Below are positions 2,572 through 60,764 of a stretch of 64,000 bases of DNA, piece after piece. A program made the position numbers and the translations under genes. Numbering within the stretch: the first letter of the stretch is position 1; each line of letters opens with the position of its first letter. The notes under the pieces were generated by a model. That model searched no databases. It saw nothing but the letters and a program-made list of their open reading frames with translations, and had not been told where the DNA came from. Source of the stretch: Thermoproteota archaeon (lineage in GTDB: Archaea; Korarchaeota; Korarchaeia; Korarchaeales; Korarchaeaceae); assembly GCA_026986575.1 (NCBI GenBank), contig JALSOH010000004.1, forward strand, positions 496,001 through 560,000, read 5' to 3'.

Positions 2572-3516
2572 TCACAATTCGACTATATCGTCATACCTCG
2601 GACCGGCCCTAGGAGGCTTGTGGAACGGCTCTCTAAGTCTAACTGCCCTTTTGAAGGCCTCTAAGAGTTCCTCATCTGTCCCTCCGTTCCTCATTATAGA
2701 GAGGAAGTCGACGAGGTTGTCCTCCCTCCTTATGCATGTCTTAAAGAAGCCGTCGGATGTCACCCTTATCCTGTTGCATCGCATGCAGAAGAAGGGATTG
2801 CCTGTCCCCTTGACTATCTCCACAATGGCTCCACCGTCTAAATAGTAGAGAGGTCTACCGTGGAGCTCCCTTATCTCCTTTCTCAGAGACATCTTCTCCA
2901 GTTCCTTCTCAAATCCATCGAGGCTATAGTAGTATCTCCTGAGGCCAGGATCCACATCCAAGAGCTCTATGAATTGAATCCTTATCCCCTTGGATGAGGC
3001 GTACCTCACCAGTTCCCACAGCTCATCATCGTTGTATCCCCTGAGAACAGTCACATTAACCTTCACGGGGGTCAATCCGCACTCTAAGGCGGTATCAACT
3101 GCTTTTAACGCCCTATCCAAACCATCTACTCCGGTTATCCTCTCGTAAATGTCCCTCCTCAGCGAATGGAGGCTTATATTCACCCTATCCAGACCGGCCT
3201 CCTTTAGGGGACAAGCTCTCTCTGGGAGGAACCATCCGTTGGTCACCAAGCTTATCTCCTCAATTCCAGCCTCCCGAATGCCTCTCACTATCTCTTCCAA
3301 GTCACGCCTCATCAGGGGCTCTCCACCCGTGATCTTGACGGTCCTTATCCCGTGCTTTACTAGCAATTTCACCAAGCGGGTTATCTCGACGGGGGTCATC
3401 TCACCCCCTTCTATTCCATGTCCCTCCTTGTGGCAGAAGAAGCAGTTGTAATTACAGGCGTTAGTGACGGAGATCCTCAGATTGGTGATGGGCCTACCCC
3501 ACCTATCCAGTAGCAA
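2572..3516 (-). CDS. moaA: GTP 3',8-cyclase MoaA (molybdopterin step 1)
   Basis: A radical SAM enzyme that rearranges GTP to 3',8-cyclo-GTP in molybdenum/tungsten cofactor synthesis. The N-terminal cluster is C21-x3-C25-x2-C28 (TNACNYNCFFC). The second Fe-S site near the C-terminus is visible as NPFFCMRCNRIRVTSDGFFKTC. At 314 residues it is of normal length. The TGGEPLMRRDLEEIV segment is the usual SAM-binding GGEP region. It is the last gene of the minus-strand run and lies one base after moaC. Confidence 0.93.
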   Translation of the reverse strand: MLLDRWGRPITNLRISVTNACNYNCFFCHKEGHGIEGGEMTPVEITRLVKLLVKHGIRTVKITGGEPLMRRDLEEIVRGIREAGIEEISLVTNGWFLPERACPLKEAGLDRVNISLHSLRRDIYERITGVDGLDRALKAVDTALECGLTPVKVNVTVLRGYNDDELWELVRYASSKGIRIQFIELLDVDPGLRRYYYSLDGFEKELEKMSLRKEIRELHGRPLYYLDGGAIVEIVKGTGNPFFCMRCNRIRVTSDGFFKTCIRREDNLVDFLSIMRNGGTDEELLEAFKRAVRLREPFHKPPRAGPRYDDIVEL

Positions 3517-30008: not shown

Positions 30009-30881
30009 TTAGATCTCCTTCCTCATCCACTTGTACCTGCTTACCGGCTCGAAGCCAGCGGCCTCGAATGCCGCCCTGTACCTGCACCAAGTCTGCGTAA
30101 CTACCTTGGGCACACCCATTTCATTGGCGAGGGTAACCGCCATCTCAGCAGAGTCAAATATCTGACCGAGACTGGCCCTCTTCGGTCCCCATATCAAGGC
30201 ATAAAGGTGATCATCATCCCTAGTAGGCTGGAACATCGCGAGGATGAGTTGCCACAGTCCCACCCTGACCTTCACGACTCTCGGCGAGGGGAGACCCACA
30301 CTCTCCCTGTCCCACAGTAGCTCCCAAAGGAGGGATGATGGCCTCGTCTGTCCAGCGATCATCTGGGCGGCAGCGGGGAACTCCTCCCTTGTAGCGTTCT
30401 CTAACTTGGGCTGCTCGGGTGCAGGTCTCGCTGGCGCTTCCATGAGCACCTGAGAATCGATCTCCCTGAATCCTAGATTTTCGAAGAAGGGAAGGGCCTC
30501 GGCGGTCGGTATCGTGTCCAAGTGACGCATTCCCATTTCCCTAGCTAGATCCACACACCTCTCAACGAGCTTCCTTCCTACGCCAGTCCTCCTCGCCTCC
30601 TCCTTGACCCAGACCATCTGCAGATATGCGTGCTCTCCTACTGGTGTGAGGAACCTCTCCGGTACGACCTCAGCTTCACCGAGTACCTTTTCATCGGATA
30701 AGGCGACCACTGCCTTGCCACCGGACGAGTAGAGGGCCTCCAAGTACCACCCAAATACTTGGGGATCACCCCAGTACCCGCACTCCTTGATCCGGAGATC
30801 GAAGGTCATATCCTCCCAGTTAGGGCAGTGAATCGAGACGACTTCATCCAACAAATCGTGACTGAGCTCAACTATCTCCAA
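30009..30881 (-). CDS. GNAT-family N-acetyltransferase
   Basis: 290 residues. The first half is a GNAT domain with the acetyl-CoA loop VKEEARRTGVGRKLVERCVDLAREMG and LPFFENLGFREIDSQVLM. The second half resembles a second, degenerate GNAT unit ending RAAFEAAGFEPVSRYKWM. Substrate unknown; it may acetylate a protein or small molecule. Its start lies within the last codons of the Sir2 gene (10-base overlap), so an acetylase and a deacylase are translationally coupled. It is the last gene of the four-gene operon. Confidence 0.8.
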   Translation of the reverse strand: MEIVELSHDLLDEVVSIHCPNWEDMTFDLRIKECGYWGDPQVFGWYLEALYSSGGKAVVALSDEKVLGEAEVVPERFLTPVGEHAYLQMVWVKEEARRTGVGRKLVERCVDLAREMGMRHLDTIPTAEALPFFENLGFREIDSQVLMEAPARPAPEQPKLENATREEFPAAAQMIAGQTRPSSLLWELLWDRESVGLPSPRVVKVRVGLWQLILAMFQPTRDDDHLYALIWGPKRASLGQIFDSAEMAVTLANEMGVPKVVTQTWCRYRAAFEAAGFEPVSRYKWMRKEI

Positions 30882-31642
30882 GAGGGATCCTCCTCCACCA
30901 GCCAGGCGAGCTCCCTGAAGATCTCTCCCGCCGGCCCTCTCAACCTGATGTTCGCTAAGCTACTTAAATTAGTTTCCTCAGGATTCACTTCCACCAGTAT
31001 CTTCCCTTGCCTCGCCGCGTTGATGGGTAACAGGGCTGCGGGCATGACCATACCACTAGTTCCTACGATGAGGATGACTTCTGCCTCAAGGAAGAGCCTC
31101 TCTGCTCTCTCGAACTGGTCCATCGGGACGGGCTCCTCGAACCACACCACATCAGGCCTAAGAAGTCCCCCACACTCTCTACACCTCGGTAGATCCTCTT
31201 CCGGTGTGTTTCCAAATCCTAGATCGTACCGTCTGCCGCATACAGTACACCTAGTCCTCCATATCGAACCGTGAAGCTCAATGACCAGCTTGGAGCCGGC
31301 TCTCTTGTGGAGCCCGTCCACGTTCTGGGTAACCACGCCGATGAGTATACCCTTCCTCTCCCAGTCAGCCATTACCTTGTGGGCCCAAGTTGGCTCGGCC
31401 CTCGCGATTATGGACATCCTCCACTTGTACCACTCCCAGACCCTCTTGGGGTTGGACTCGAACGCCTGGGGTGTAGCCAACTCCTCGGGCCTGTACCTGT
31501 TCCAGAGCCCGTCCTTACCCCTGAAGGTCGGGATGGCTGCCTCAGCTGAGGTCCCTGCACCGGTGAACGCTAGCACCTTTCCGGAGTGCTCCTTGATAAG
31601 GCGGGCCGCTGAAGACAGGTCCTCAGGAGCTACCTCACTCAC
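30872..31642 (-). CDS. Sir2-family NAD-dependent protein deacylase
   Basis: 256 residues, normal for archaeal and bacterial sirtuins. Seen: GAGTSAEAAIPTFRG (NAD site, residues 28-42), TQNVDGLHKRAG with the catalytic histidine following in VIELHGS, four zinc cysteines CTVCGRRY and CRECGGLLRPDVVWFEE, and GTSGMVMPAALLP. It removes acetyl or other acyl groups from lysines using NAD+. It overlaps the radical SAM gene upstream and the acetyltransferase gene downstream, so its target may be a product of this operon. Confidence 0.93.
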   Translation of the reverse strand: MSEVAPEDLSSAARLIKEHSGKVLAFTGAGTSAEAAIPTFRGKDGLWNRYRPEELATPQAFESNPKRVWEWYKWRMSIIARAEPTWAHKVMADWERKGILIGVVTQNVDGLHKRAGSKLVIELHGSIWRTRCTVCGRRYDLGFGNTPEEDLPRCRECGGLLRPDVVWFEEPVPMDQFERAERLFLEAEVILIVGTSGMVMPAALLPINAARQGKILVEVNPEETNLSSLANIRLRGPAGEIFRELAWLVEEDPSWR

Positions 31643-32945
31643 CTAACCTCACCTCCGGCGGGGAGCTGGGGTACGGTCTCACCTCTGCCTCAAGGGGACA
31701 CCCTCCCCTGCAGACTTGGAGCAGAGGGCAGGAGAGACACACATCCCCCACGAAGCGGAGCTCCCTGATCTTCAGGCACTCATCGTGATACCAGATCCTA
31801 TCCCAAGGATCCCTCAGGATGTGTCCCAGAACCTTGTAATGGCTCTGGCAAGGTATCACGGATCCATCGGGCTCCACCGCTAGGGTTATGCTGCATGCCG
31901 AGCAGAACTTCGGTCCCAGACCCTCGCTCATTGGATCCAGCTCACAGTACCGGGTCACCCCGTACCACCTGAAGTCCAAGTCCAGCTCCGTGGTGAGCTC
32001 CTTAGCCTCCGCCAACACCCCCCTCATCTCATCAAAGGAGGGCTCCAGATCTCTCAGGTCCCTACCCCTCCCACTGTATATCAGCCTGTTCAGCGAGAAT
32101 CCATCAACACCCAGATCCGCGACGAACCGGATCAGCGATTCCACCGTTTTCATGTTCCTCCTCAGGAGGGTCGCATTAACGCTCACGTAGATATTGAACT
32201 TCAGCAGGTTCTTGAGCCCCTCGACCGTCTCCTTCCAGCTCCCCTTCACTTGGGTTATAGAATCGTGAATCTCTGGATCGCTGGACTCCAAGGTCACCTG
32301 AGCGAAATCCAGTCCGGCCTCGACCAATCTCTCAACCAGCTCTCGGGTCAAGAGCCTCCCATTCGTCACTATTCCCGAGACCATCCCGAGCCTCTGAGCT
32401 TCAGCCACCAGCTCCGGGAGGTCTCTCCTGAGGGTGGGCTCTCCACCGGTGAAAGTGACTTGGGGAACCCCCAGCTCGTGGAACTTCCTTATCACGGCCT
32501 TCCACTCATCCGTGTTCAATTCCTCCCGCTCGTCGGGACTGGAGGAGTAGCAATGGATGCAGGCGTTATTGCACCTGTATGTGAGGGCCAAGTCGACCCT
32601 GAAAGGGGCACCAAGGGTTGATGGATCTGGGAAGGCCGGTTTGAACCCCAGATCGGTTACGGGATCCTCGTACCCCTCAATGAATCTCCTGAGCTTGCTA
32701 ATCACCTCCTCATAGTGCCTCCTCACCTCGTCCCTCCTCATGCCCCTGTAAATCCTCTTCAACTCCCGGTAAGCCTCATCCCATCCCTTACCTGAGAGGA
32801 AGGCCTTCGCGAAGACCGCTGCCGTGTAGTTAAGGTAAGCGACCCTCTGAGCATCTACCACGAGGGCGCCCATGGCTAGGGGATCTATGCGGAGCTGGAT
32901 CCTCCTACCATTCAATTTGAATGTCAGGGATTCCCTCTCAATCAA
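31635..32945 (-). CDS. Radical SAM/SPASM protein with PqqD-like N-terminal domain
   Basis: 436 residues if started at TTG 32945, which overlaps the TGA of the preceding gene (TTGA). Residues about 15-95 (RIDPLAMGALVVDAQRVAYLN, then LSGKGWDEAYRELKRIYRG and VRRHYEEVISKLRRFIEG) match the PqqD/RRE pattern that binds substrate peptides. The radical SAM core follows with C125-x3-C129-x2-C132 (TYRCNNACIHCYS) and TFTGGEPTLRRDL. The C-terminal SPASM region has CSACS, IPCQSHYK and CLSCPLLQVCRGGCPLE, giving auxiliary Fe-S clusters. These domains are typical of peptide-modifying enzymes. The likely substrate is the Cys-Ala tail of the preceding gene; this is inference. Confidence 0.85.
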   Translation of the reverse strand: MIERESLTFKLNGRRIQLRIDPLAMGALVVDAQRVAYLNYTAAVFAKAFLSGKGWDEAYRELKRIYRGMRRDEVRRHYEEVISKLRRFIEGYEDPVTDLGFKPAFPDPSTLGAPFRVDLALTYRCNNACIHCYSSSPDEREELNTDEWKAVIRKFHELGVPQVTFTGGEPTLRRDLPELVAEAQRLGMVSGIVTNGRLLTRELVERLVEAGLDFAQVTLESSDPEIHDSITQVKGSWKETVEGLKNLLKFNIYVSVNATLLRRNMKTVESLIRFVADLGVDGFSLNRLIYSGRGRDLRDLEPSFDEMRGVLAEAKELTTELDLDFRWYGVTRYCELDPMSEGLGPKFCSACSITLAVEPDGSVIPCQSHYKVLGHILRDPWDRIWYHDECLKIRELRFVGDVCLSCPLLQVCRGGCPLEAEVRPYPSSPPEVRLGE

Positions 32946-34606
32946 CCAACCCCACCTCCGGCACAGGCACAAGCGCAACTCACACATGCGCAGGCACAAG
33001 CGCAGCTGACGCAGGCGCAGCTGACTGACGCCGTCCTCCTAGCTCGAGGTTTGGGGGGGACGATGACCCTAGCCACCCTGTCGGCGAAATCCTCGATATT
33101 CCTGACGACATTGGAGGAGACCTCCTCGACCGATCTGGCGATGGTATCGGCGGCTTTCTCTATGTCGGGGATGACCGGGACATCCACCTTGCCACCAGGC
33201 GTCCCGGACGTATCGGGAGCTCTGGGCACCCTTGGAGCGGGCGGGATTGAGGTCCATCTACCCCTAGGCCACCATATCCACACATCGTCCAGCGGGTAGG
33301 GATAGGAGGTAACGACTACCTCCCCCTTAGGCCTCCTCAATGCCCTTCTCAGGTTTCTCTCGAAATCAGGATCGGTCAACAGCCATGCCAGATTACTCCT
33401 GACGAGATCGAGCTTCTCATCGAGGGGAGCATCCTCGATCATCTCCCATATCGATCTTACCTTGCTATCGTAGAAGGCGAGGGTCTCCCTCCTTGAGTAC
33501 CCGGATAACTCCCTCTCCACCCTCCTGTGTAAGAGCTTGATTACCTTAACCAAGCAATCTTGGTCTAGAGATCCGCCCTCAGTCAAACAGTCCAAGAACC
33601 TCTTCTCATAGATCCTCAGGTTCCTTCTCGAACCTTCCAGCTTCCTCAATTTGAGCGGATCCAAGCTCTCCACTGCCAAGAACCCTTTCTCCACTAGGCT
33701 GGCTATGAGAACCGCTAAAATTCGCCCGTAACTGAGCTTGGCCCCCTCTAACTTGCGGAGGTAGGCCACTTCCGTTGGAGCCATGTTCTTGTTCGGTCCC
33801 AAACTCTCGGCGAAGATCTCGGGGGCCTGGTAGGGTAGCTTCTCTATCCATGACTTGAATAACTTGACTATGGCCACGATGGAGATTATTACCGCTCCCA
33901 GAAACACGATTCCTATAATGAAGCTGAGATAGTTCGGGATCCCGCCACCCGCAGGTACCACCCTCTCGACGTAGTCCCTCGGAAAGGACACCCCTATCTC
34001 GAACTTGTAGTTAGGGGGAAGGTCCCTCCTCTCCCAGTAGAGGTATATCCTGCCGTCATCCAGCACTTGCAAGTTGTCGTAATCGGGCTGGTTCTTCACC
34101 TCTCCCTTGGAGACCCCAGGAGGTAGTATCACAAAGACTTGGAGCAGCTTGATGGGAGCATTGAACCACGAGGGTGTGAACATGAGGCCTGCATTGCCCG
34201 GGTTGGTCTCATCCTCGTAGATGAAGTCCCTGAGCTCGACCTCCACTACGTAGGTCCTGCTTTCCCCCGGGTCTATAGGCTCGCTGGGTCTCATCTTTAC
34301 CGCGTAATACGAGCCCTCTCTGATCTCCTCAGCATCGATCTCAACGATTCTACCGTCCGGGAAGACCTCCTTAGCCTCTAGCACGCTGAAAGATGGGGAG
34401 GGCATCCCTATCGATACGTACCGGGCTATAGTTCCAGACTTCACCTTTAGAGTGAGGTTGTACCTCAAGTACACCGTTCCCGAACGCTGTATATCGAGGA
34501 TGACCTTTTCCCTCTCTATCTCATACAATATCTGGCTGCTCGTGTTTATTAGAGGAATTAGGAGCGCGGAAATGACAAGAAATAGTAGAATTAGCCTGAA
34601 CCTCAT
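32942..34606 (-). CDS. DUF2207-like membrane protein with a Cys-Ala repeat tail
   Basis: 554 residues from ATG 34606, fixed by a TATA box 25 nt upstream. A signal peptide (RFRLILLFLVISALLIPLI) leads to an extracytoplasmic beta domain (residues 25-220), one membrane helix at 226-250, then KSWIEK and a cytosolic part with P-T-E-V-A-Y-L near 277-283, as in DUF2207-type proteins. After an amphipathic helix and a basic Pro/Arg hinge, the last 28 residues hold nine cysteines at 530, 532, 535, 537, 539, 541, 544, 546 and 548, separated only by Ala or Val-Ser, ending AGGGVG. The tail resembles a substrate for the coupled radical SAM enzyme or a metal-binding site. Function unknown. Confidence 0.78.
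   Translation of the reverse strand: MRFRLILLFLVISALLIPLINTSSQILYEIEREKVILDIQRSGTVYLRYNLTLKVKSGTIARYVSIGMPSPSFSVLEAKEVFPDGRIVEIDAEEIREGSYYAVKMRPSEPIDPGESRTYVVEVELRDFIYEDETNPGNAGLMFTPSWFNAPIKLLQVFVILPPGVSKGEVKNQPDYDNLQVLDDGRIYLYWERRDLPPNYKFEIGVSFPRDYVERVVPAGGGIPNYLSFIIGIVFLGAVIISIVAIVKLFKSWIEKLPYQAPEIFAESLGPNKNMAPTEVAYLRKLEGAKLSYGRILAVLIASLVEKGFLAVESLDPLKLRKLEGSRRNLRIYEKRFLDCLTEGGSLDQDCLVKVIKLLHRRVERELSGYSRRETLAFYDSKVRSIWEMIEDAPLDEKLDLVRSNLAWLLTDPDFERNLRRALRRPKGEVVVTSYPYPLDDVWIWWPRGRWTSIPPAPRVPRAPDTSGTPGGKVDVPVIPDIEKAADTIARSVEEVSSNVVRNIEDFADRVARVIVPPKPRARRTASVSCACVSCACACACVSCACACAGGGVG
32963..33025 (-). repeat. Tandem repeat encoding the Val-Ser-Cys-Ala-Cys tail
   Basis: Three related units encode V-S-C-A-C, V-S-C-A-C-A-C-A-C and V-S-C-A-C-A-C. 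The DNA units (GTCAGCTGCGCCTGC, GTCAGCTGCGCTTGTGCC..., GTGAGTTGCGCTTGTGCC...) differ by synonymous changes, which suggests that the protein pattern has been kept by selection rather than being a fresh slippage product. Confidence 0.75.
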
Positions 34607-55171: not shown

Positions 55172-56158
55172 TTAGTAGAATCTTATTGCCCTCTCCAGCC
55201 TCGATAGGAGCACTATCCTACTCTCAGGAGACTCATCTATGATATTATAACCCGTCAGCTCCGCTATTTTAGATGCGAAAGCCCTAACCTCCTCATGGGT
55301 TGGCATGCTCTCCCTCCCTAGCCTCCTTCTAGAGTAGCCTACCCACATGTAGGCCTTGGGCTCCACGTATGTGGGCTGAGATTCCTTTATCATCCGAGAG
55401 AATTCTTCTATCACCTTATTATCCATGTTAAATCCCTTTATCAATGGTATCCTCATGACAGTTGGGGAGGAGAAGGACTGGAGCATCTCTAGGGTCTTCT
55501 GAAGCCTAGACCATGCATCAGGCCACAATGGGCGGGTTATTTCCATGTAGAGCCTCTCATTTGGGGCGGGGACCGTGACATACAGTTGAGTAGGCTCTCT
55601 TTCCAAGTTCTCCAGCCTCTCCGGGAGGGTACCATTAGTGACGATGAAGGTGGTCATCCCCCTCTTCGCGTAAGCTTCCACGAGTCCACCTATGTGCGGG
55701 TAAAGTGTGGGCTCTCCCGTCAGGGAGATAGCTGCATGCTTTGGCTCCTCTGCCTCGTACACCCATTCCTTCCTAAACACCTTCACTCCCTTGTAGCCCT
55801 GTACTATCATCTTCTGCAATCTGATACTCTCTTCAGCTATTTCTTCTGGATCGTCCCACTTTGCCCCCTCCTCAGGCACCTCCTTCCACCTGAACTCGGC
55901 CGGTACATCGCTCACATTCAACCTCCAGCAGTAGAGGCACTGTAAGTTGCAGAAGGACGCGGTGGGGGTCATCTGAAGGCATCTCCATGAGGGAATGCCG
56001 TAGAACTTGTGCTTGTAGCAGGTTCTTCCCTCCATTAGGGCCTTTCTAAACCAGTAGCATGGTTTCATGGCTGAATGATTTAGAATAATTTTGTACCCCT
56101 GCTTCTCCATGAGTTTCCTCACGCGATCGGGTATCCTCACGAGACCGGTGGATAACAT
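55172..56158 (-). CDS. taw1: tRNA 4-demethylwyosine synthase Taw1
   Basis: 328 residues from ATG 56158. A radical SAM enzyme that builds the tricyclic base of wyosine from m1G37 of tRNA-Phe with pyruvate. The radical SAM cluster is C70-x3-C74-x2-C77 (ASFCNLQCLYCWR), and the second Fe-S cluster cysteines are at C34, C47 and C60 (KPCYWF, RTCYKHKFYG, WRCLQ). AISLTGEPTLYPHIGGLV is the SAM site. The longer start at GTG 56176 would crowd the promoter. Confidence 0.93.
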   Translation of the reverse strand: MLSTGLVRIPDRVRKLMEKQGYKIILNHSAMKPCYWFRKALMEGRTCYKHKFYGIPSWRCLQMTPTASFCNLQCLYCWRLNVSDVPAEFRWKEVPEEGAKWDDPEEIAEESIRLQKMIVQGYKGVKVFRKEWVYEAEEPKHAAISLTGEPTLYPHIGGLVEAYAKRGMTTFIVTNGTLPERLENLEREPTQLYVTVPAPNERLYMEITRPLWPDAWSRLQKTLEMLQSFSSPTVMRIPLIKGFNMDNKVIEEFSRMIKESQPTYVEPKAYMWVGYSRRRLGRESMPTHEEVRAFASKIAELTGYNIIDESPESRIVLLSRLERAIRFY

Positions 56159-59639: not shown

Positions 59640-60764
59640 TCAGGCTCCTATCACCCAGCGGGCAATGTAGCTCCTAGGGCACTGGACGGTACCCCTGTAA
59701 TAGGGGCAGAAGGAGCAGGTCGGACTGTTACCCCAACAATCGAACTCGTTGCTATTGGCTATGTGACAGCCATCCCAGAGGAGGCAGTCGTTGCATGATG
59801 GAAAGTCAGCGATCTTCACCTTAGCCCTGAAAGACACATACTCAGGGGACCACCATATCTCCCTCAAGCTCTTCTCTTTCAGATCACCGAAAACTAGCTG
59901 CTTTACCTCGACCTCCCTTCCATCGATCCAAGCCCTGTAGTCGTGGAGGGTGAAGAGGCACGGGACGACCTTCCCATCAAATGTAATGGCGAAAGCCCTC
60001 TCCTCGATGAAGGGACACCTCCTCTCAGTCTTGTAATAGAAGAAGGGCTCTATCACTCTGACATGGTGGAGCATCGAGAGGGTCCTGACCTTCCCCATGA
60101 TCTCTGAGATGTTATCGGGCTGCACCTTATCGTGTATCTGCTCATTAGCGAGAGCTGGATGGGTAGCTATCAGATTGGACAGAAGAACACCTCTGGCCCC
60201 TATTTCAGCTGCCCACTCTATTAGATCAGGGAGCTTACTCACCGTGCTCTTAAGGAGAACCGTGGAGATCCACAGTTCCACTCCATCCCTGTTGGCTAGC
60301 TCCCTGATCCCCTCCTCAACTACGTGAAAGCTCGATCCCACTCTGATCTTCCTGTAAATCTCCGGATCTGTGACATCCACGCTGACGAAAACCCAAGAGA
60401 AACAGCGACCTATAACATCAGATTTCCTTAGGAGGGTGGTTCCGTTGGTAATCATTCCCAGATCGAATCTCTCCGCCGCCTTCTCCGCGAACTCCTCGAA
60501 CCTCGGGTGAATCGTGGGTTCTCCCCATCCACTGAACCACAGATCTTGGACACCCATGTCTTCGAGCTCCTCGAGCACGCGATCGAACAGTTCCTCACTC
60601 ATGAGCCCTATCCTCTCGCTCCAGCTCTGCCTGTAGCAGAATTTACAGTTAAGGTTGCAAGAGGTCGTGAGCTCCACATGAGCCTCCCTAGGAGGATCTG
60701 GATCCGACAGATAAAAGCCTCCGTGCACCCTTATCTTCTCCAATGGTCCTCGACCGCCCCTCAC
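59640..60764 (-). CDS. Radical SAM/SPASM protein, likely tungsten-cofactor oxidoreductase maturase
   Basis: 374 residues. Radical SAM site C36-x3-C40-x2-C43 (TTSCNLNCKFCYRQ), then LWFSGWGEPTIHPRF. C-terminal cluster region: CPFIEERAFAITFDGKVVPCL, FPSCNDCLLWDGCHIANSNE, FDCWGNSPTCSFCPYYRGTVQCP. The last pattern (D-C-W-G-N-S-P-x-C) matches what I recall of the maturase found beside tungsten-dependent aldehyde oxidoreductases in Thermococcales. No such oxidoreductase gene is in this window. Specific function is moderately supported; the radical SAM/SPASM class is certain. Confidence 0.72.
   Translation of the reverse strand: MRGGRGPLEKIRVHGGFYLSDPDPPREAHVELTTSCNLNCKFCYRQSWSERIGLMSEELFDRVLEELEDMGVQDLWFSGWGEPTIHPRFEEFAEKAAERFDLGMITNGTTLLRKSDVIGRCFSWVFVSVDVTDPEIYRKIRVGSSFHVVEEGIRELANRDGVELWISTVLLKSTVSKLPDLIEWAAEIGARGVLLSNLIATHPALANEQIHDKVQPDNISEIMGKVRTLSMLHHVRVIEPFFYYKTERRCPFIEERAFAITFDGKVVPCLFTLHDYRAWIDGREVEVKQLVFGDLKEKSLREIWWSPEYVSFRAKVKIADFPSCNDCLLWDGCHIANSNEFDCWGNSPTCSFCPYYRGTVQCPRSYIARWVIGA

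Follow-up and report, generated by a model that had tools for sequence, protein, structure and literature searches.

A conserved Cys-Ala tail on an archaeal membrane protein and its pairing with a radical SAM/SPASM enzyme: a candidate protein-modification system

In three archaeal phyla, a membrane protein (MP) that ends in an almost unvarying cysteine-alanine tail is almost always encoded together with a radical SAM/SPASM enzyme of one family, and the two look like an undescribed protein-modification system. In the 64,000-nucleotide stretch of archaeal DNA analysed here (the window) they are the first two of four overlapping genes, all on the minus strand, in the order MP, radical SAM enzyme, sirtuin and GNAT acetyltransferase (Table 1). 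The overlaps given in a preliminary description of the locus (TTGA, 8 bases and 10 bases) agree with the ORF coordinates, and its assignments of radical SAM/SPASM, Sir2 and GNAT functions hold (Radical_SAM 5e-32, SPASM 2e-6, SIR2 3e-53, GNAT 4e-13). A candidate TATA box, TTAATATT, is visible 22-29 bases upstream of the MP start. Genome comparisons nevertheless indicate that the conserved system is the first two genes only.

Table 1. Coordinates of the genes, motifs and segments discussed in the text (window positions, except for the genus g3 loci)
Feature	Location	Strand	Details
MP	32942..34606	-	554 aa, ATG start; ORF reading
Radical SAM/SPASM enzyme	31635..32945	-	436 aa, TTG start inside TTGA; Pfam, SkfB is the closest solved structure
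Sirtuin (Sir2 deacylase)	30872..31642	-	PF02146 2.5e-53; 8-base overlap with enzyme gene
GNAT acetyltransferase	30009..30881	-	PF00583 3.7e-13; 10-base overlap with sirtuin gene
MP tail, SCACVSCACACACVSCACACAGGGVG	32945..33022	-	Residues 529-554 (26 residues), C-terminal end of MP
MP transmembrane helix	33842..33946	-	Hydropathy >1.6 over residues 221-255, then K/R-rich stretch
Helix directly before tail	33047..33163	-	Residues 482-520; predicted, low confidence
CxxxCxxC, SAM [4Fe-4S] cluster	32550..32573	-	C125, C129, C132; invariant in 54/54 enzymes
SPASM region	31698..31946	-	C334, C348, C366, C403, C406, C412, C416
PqqD-like/RRE domain	32670..32933	-	About residues 5-92 of enzyme
Genus g3 loci	L049:211-4597, L050:2-3784		Enzyme, 405-aa coiled-coil-like protein between, MP

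The tail of MP is as first described, and its residues prove to be invariant across the three phyla: nine core Cys, five Ala and one Val-Ser pair are the same in all 46 aligned tails, and synonymous codons differ at 61% of identical residues, which shows that it is the protein sequence that selection maintains, the small residues no less than the Cys. The mean majority fraction in these 46 sequences is 0.90 for the tail versus 0.52 for the whole of MP, and in a comparison of 18 relatives with identities as low as 32% no part of the protein is as well conserved as the tail. One strict tail pattern fits 50 of 52 MPs in a set that includes the third phylum and genus g3, the exceptions being L066 (genome G002), from which one CACVS unit of the tail has been lost, and the g3 protein. 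Within the home genome the pattern is unique to the MP gene and, given this uniqueness and the invariance of the residues in three phyla with synonymous codons saturated, the tail is not a chance occurrence; the same saturation rules out a DNA-level repeat as its origin. A search of viral contigs did not find the tail.

Every one of the 52 intact MPs that adjoin the enzyme has a Cys tail, of the CACACAC type in 51 and built from a different Cys repeat in one, and none is tail-less. This is in line with the earlier proposal that a peptide-modifying radical SAM/SPASM enzyme is paired with a Cys-tailed membrane protein (52/52), against which tail-less homologues beside the enzyme in most genomes were to have counted. 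The two genes usually overlap or abut. Among 29 genomes of the home phylum the enzyme is present in 24, all 24 with MP, and four have neither gene; put the other way, 24 of the 25 MP genomes carry the enzyme, the exception (G025) having its MP on a 4.6-kb contig. In a 398-genome sample of the second phylum both genes occur in 26 of 31 carriers (G196, in which both are broken, being counted among the 26), the enzyme only in three and MP only in two, both of the latter being MP fragments cut at contig ends. Enzyme scores in this phylum are bimodal, with 28 genomes at E < 1e-110 and the next at 1e-64, and MP was found in 25 of those 28; the co-occurrence gives a Fisher p of 3e-35 with genomes treated as independent, a figure that their relatedness makes optimistic. 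The third phylum has the enzyme in six of 115 genomes, each with an adjoining MP that carries the same tail (6/6). Neither MP nor enzyme was found in four further archaeal phyla (152, 5, 23 and 29 genomes), which were searched without a positive control there. MP and enzyme distances are correlated (r = 0.96, reached by 0 of 2000 permutations), which we take to show joint inheritance, not contact.

The pairing has exceptions. Two incomplete genomes of one genus, G443 and G586, carry the enzyme at E about 1e-200 with no detectable MP, and a search for the tail pattern elsewhere in both did not find it; these two cases count against reading the pair as a maturation system. At both loci (L100 and L101) a second radical SAM gene adjoins or lies near the enzyme relative. 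In G511 the enzyme is at a contig end, and in G026 the two genes are about 31 kb apart. Frameshifts or stops disrupt both genes of G196 (L127, G196:C55:43000-58000), where the Cys tail can still be read, and this double breakage is either joint decay or an assembly error. Genus g3 (L049 and L050), which belongs to the same family, carries a divergent form: its enzyme is about 36% identical and its MP 23%, and its tail, the end of which is sequenced in L049 only, consists of ACHSACHSAC-type Cys repeats. That enzyme, MP and tail have all changed together in this genus suggests that the enzyme reads the MP tail.

The sirtuin and the acetyltransferase follow a different pattern. They adjoin the pair in the home genus only, with the exception of one GNAT-like neighbour outside it (L057, a weak match at 27% identity); even within the home genus the sirtuin is missing beside the pair in G002 (L066), and in the other families examined no sirtuin was seen beside it. 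The two genes are thus best regarded, on present comparisons, as operon neighbours outside the core system. The preliminary description had treated the four genes as one system, of which the pairing of MP with the enzyme stands (52/52 Cys-tailed) and the part assigned to sirtuin and GNAT does not, being confined to the home genus; its suggestion that lysine acylation controls the state of the tail is unsupported for the same reason. That the whole operon is a single unit in which sirtuin and GNAT exert such control is, we believe, very improbable, even though the genes overlap in the home genus, because the other families examined have neither gene next to the pair and lysine is missing from the tail itself. 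We reject acylation control as a core part of the system on the strength of this distribution.

MP is predicted to consist of an N-terminal signal or transmembrane segment, a beta-rich ectodomain, one transmembrane helix, a cytosolic helical domain, a linker, an amphipathic helix and the Cys-Ala tail. By hydropathy and the positive-inside rule, its C-terminal half and its tail should both be cytosolic, in the compartment expected of the enzyme. The predicted helix that precedes the tail has a conservation of 0.53/0.46 versus 0.29 for the linker that precedes it, and is a possible recognition segment for the enzyme; the AF2 model has no confident structure beyond residue 407, tail included. No Pfam or NCBIfam family reaches the window MP, and no member of its family that was tested exceeds the Pfam cut-off for DUF2207. 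Profile-profile comparison nonetheless suggests a remote relationship to DUF2207: hhalign matches the domain order of DUF2207 proteins L171, L172 and L067 with 98.6% probability over 294 columns that span ectodomain, transmembrane helix and the start of the cytosolic domain, at an E-value (7.9e-16) that comes from a pairwise comparison and is not that of a database search. The order of ectodomain, transmembrane helix and cytosolic domain is thus common to MP and to the DUF2207 (YciQ-like) and TIGR04222 near-uncomplex proteins, of which the latter model also gives a weak match (2.5e-4) to the g3 MP; a DUF2207 relative, moreover, ends in a Gly-rich low-complexity tail. The MP family differs from these proteins in lying below Pfam detection, in the invariance of its Cys-Ala tail and in having an enzyme dedicated to it. 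The relatives L171 and L172 have a Gly-rich tail or none, with no such enzyme adjoining; they are represented by tandem paralogues (L171:3538-7146 and L172:3760-7371), one with the Gly-rich tail and one without. We also note that the model of the MP ectodomain (window 33980-34530) has a Foldseek match to ribophorin I, an oligosaccharyltransferase subunit (E 1e-12), and matches to the N-terminal domain of M1 aminopeptidases, and that some MP members give weak Pfam Ribophorin_I matches.

The enzyme is a clear radical SAM protein (PF04055, 5.3e-32 in the window copy and clear in 18 of 18 members), and SPASM (PF13186) was found in all 18 members as well. Of its ten invariant Cys, three belong to the SAM cluster and seven to the SPASM region, and the seven are unchanged in each of the 53 enzymes whose sequence spans those columns. 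The SPASM spacings CX12GX4C and CX2CX5CX3C are present; the window enzyme is without the final C-terminal Cys of the canonical set and has an extra upstream one, C334, which is invariant. PqqD (PF05402) reaches E <= 1 in nine of the 18 members (best 8.2e-11) and is not significant in the window copy alone, where the AF2 model (pLDDT 67) has a PqqD-like N-terminal domain, strand-rich and followed by three helices. Among solved structures SkfB gives the best profile match (4e-39; 137 bits), with YydG far weaker (32 bits), and it also comes first by fold, using the same predicted model (pLDDT 67), followed by SuiB and PqqE. Among the best 25 NCBIfam matches listed the enzyme passes no equivalog cut-off: it scores 114.8 bits with the SkfB model (cut-off 300), 82.9 with AlbA (cut-off 850) and 82 with HxsC (cut-off 267.9). 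Identity between the window enzyme and its nearest characterised relatives is only about 20%, so the reaction type is not readable from homology. The window contains three more radical SAM genes (3001-3474, 55418-55960 and 60213-60674 (-)), for which no tie to the pair was seen.

We consider it probable that the pair is a two-component maturation system in which the enzyme modifies the MP tail, most likely with thioether cross-links, and the tail stays attached. The PqqD-like domain would bind the cytosolic end of MP, perhaps at the helix before the tail, and the SAM-derived radical chemistry of the enzyme would then modify the invariant Cys-Ala tail. The most likely product would be a set of intramolecular cross-links of the sactionine type (Cys sulfur to backbone alpha-carbon), although ranthionine-type links on the tail are also possible, and the modified tail would remain as a folded, stapled cytosolic end, with no release of a peptide; the invariant Ala could be acceptor sites, or simply the sole side chains that fit. 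Action of the enzyme on the tail is supported by the finding that Ala and Val-Ser are as invariant as Cys with synonymous sites saturated, and by the Gly tail, or absence of a tail, in DUF2207 relatives without the enzyme. Given the relationship to SkfB, the RRE-like domain and the Cys, thioether cross-linking is the chemistry to be expected first. To our knowledge, known sactipeptides do not usually show so strict an alternation of Cys and Ala, and we have counted this against the thioether reading.

That alternation, together with the invariant Ala, would suit modification of every other residue, as in one of the two main rival explanations, in which the enzyme acts on the tail without forming thioethers, by alternate-residue epimerisation (for example L-Ala to D-Ala) or some other residue-level change. 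Radical SAM epimerases act on other repeats, and YydG is among the weak structural relatives of the enzyme; its match of 32 bits is, however, set against 137 bits for SkfB, and the nearly all-Cys alternate register favours thiol chemistry, so that we regard this explanation as unlikely. The other main rival is an unmodified tail that binds metal or an Fe-S cluster in the manner of metallothionein, the enzyme having some other target, such as a cofactor carried along with MP. A stretch of about 27 residues with ten Cys would bind metal, and in some relatives an additional zinc-ribbon gene lies upstream of MP, but metal binding has no need of invariant Ala, Val and Ser, and an enzyme that has an RRE-like domain and tracks the tail makes this, too, an improbable account. 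The favoured maturation by the enzyme can be extended, more tentatively and as a plausible rather than a probable proposal, to an undescribed post-translational system, spread over three or more archaeal phyla, whose dedicated enzyme would knit the MP tail into a cytosolic module that carries several thioethers or some other radical-derived modification and is not detached from MP. Such a module would be a new kind of RiPP-like structure anchored to a protein, with metal binding or redox sensing as possible roles.

The known targets of radical SAM maturases are for the most part short secreted peptides. The window enzyme resembles the sactipeptide synthases SkfB and AlbA in its combination of radical SAM, SPASM and N-terminal PqqD-like domains and in having the gene of a Cys-rich substrate, here a candidate one, adjoining, but is far below both equivalog cut-offs, and the candidate substrate is not a short secreted peptide but the C-terminal tail of a 550-aa membrane protein. 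The HxsA/HxsB/HxsC system likewise combines a repeat-bearing protein with radical SAM maturases, a pairing entered in NCBIfam and reportedly described by Haft and Basu; its repeat is His-Xaa-Ser, with two radical SAM partners, whereas the MP tail contains no His. In the ACGX system (TIGR04340 rSAM_ACGX with the TIGR04341 repeat peptide) a radical SAM/SPASM enzyme is also accompanied by Cys-containing repeats, and these resemble the ACHS repeats found in g3. Scored with TIGR04340, the enzyme of that genus reaches 89.5 bits (cut-off 400), a model absent from the best 25 NCBIfam matches listed for the window enzyme, and we know of no DUF2207-like membrane carrier in the ACGX system. Thioethers are introduced into a functional protein by QhpD, a radical SAM/SPASM enzyme that acts on a quinohemoprotein amine dehydrogenase subunit (PMC11002830), although the links there are Cys-Asp/Glu in an enzyme subunit and the target here is a Cys-Ala tail. 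A 2025 survey of archaeal RiPPs names ranthipeptides and sactipeptides only as classes (PMC12144867), and no description of the tail or the pair was found in the literature on DUF2207, ACGX, archaeal radical SAM RiPPs and His-Xaa-Ser. Systems that combine a radical SAM maturase and a repeat-bearing protein are known; new, as far as we have found, are the target, the degree to which it is conserved and the range of lineages that have it. One enzyme family is apparently devoted to the terminal part of a large membrane protein, the target is kept almost letter for letter in three phyla, and its 26 residues are a directly testable candidate substrate. The pair may also give a first function to one branch of the widespread and poorly understood DUF2207 proteins.

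Some pairs have further neighbours. In many genomes of the second phylum a protein of 115-124 aa with a zinc-ribbon-like C-terminal stretch overlaps the MP start (L105:5149-5496, L116:5260-5613, L117:5455-5829); the home genus has no such gene next to MP. The gene after that of the enzyme encodes, in one family of the second phylum, a HAD-family (SerB-like) protein of about 414 aa (L116:8626-9870; also L117 and L118).
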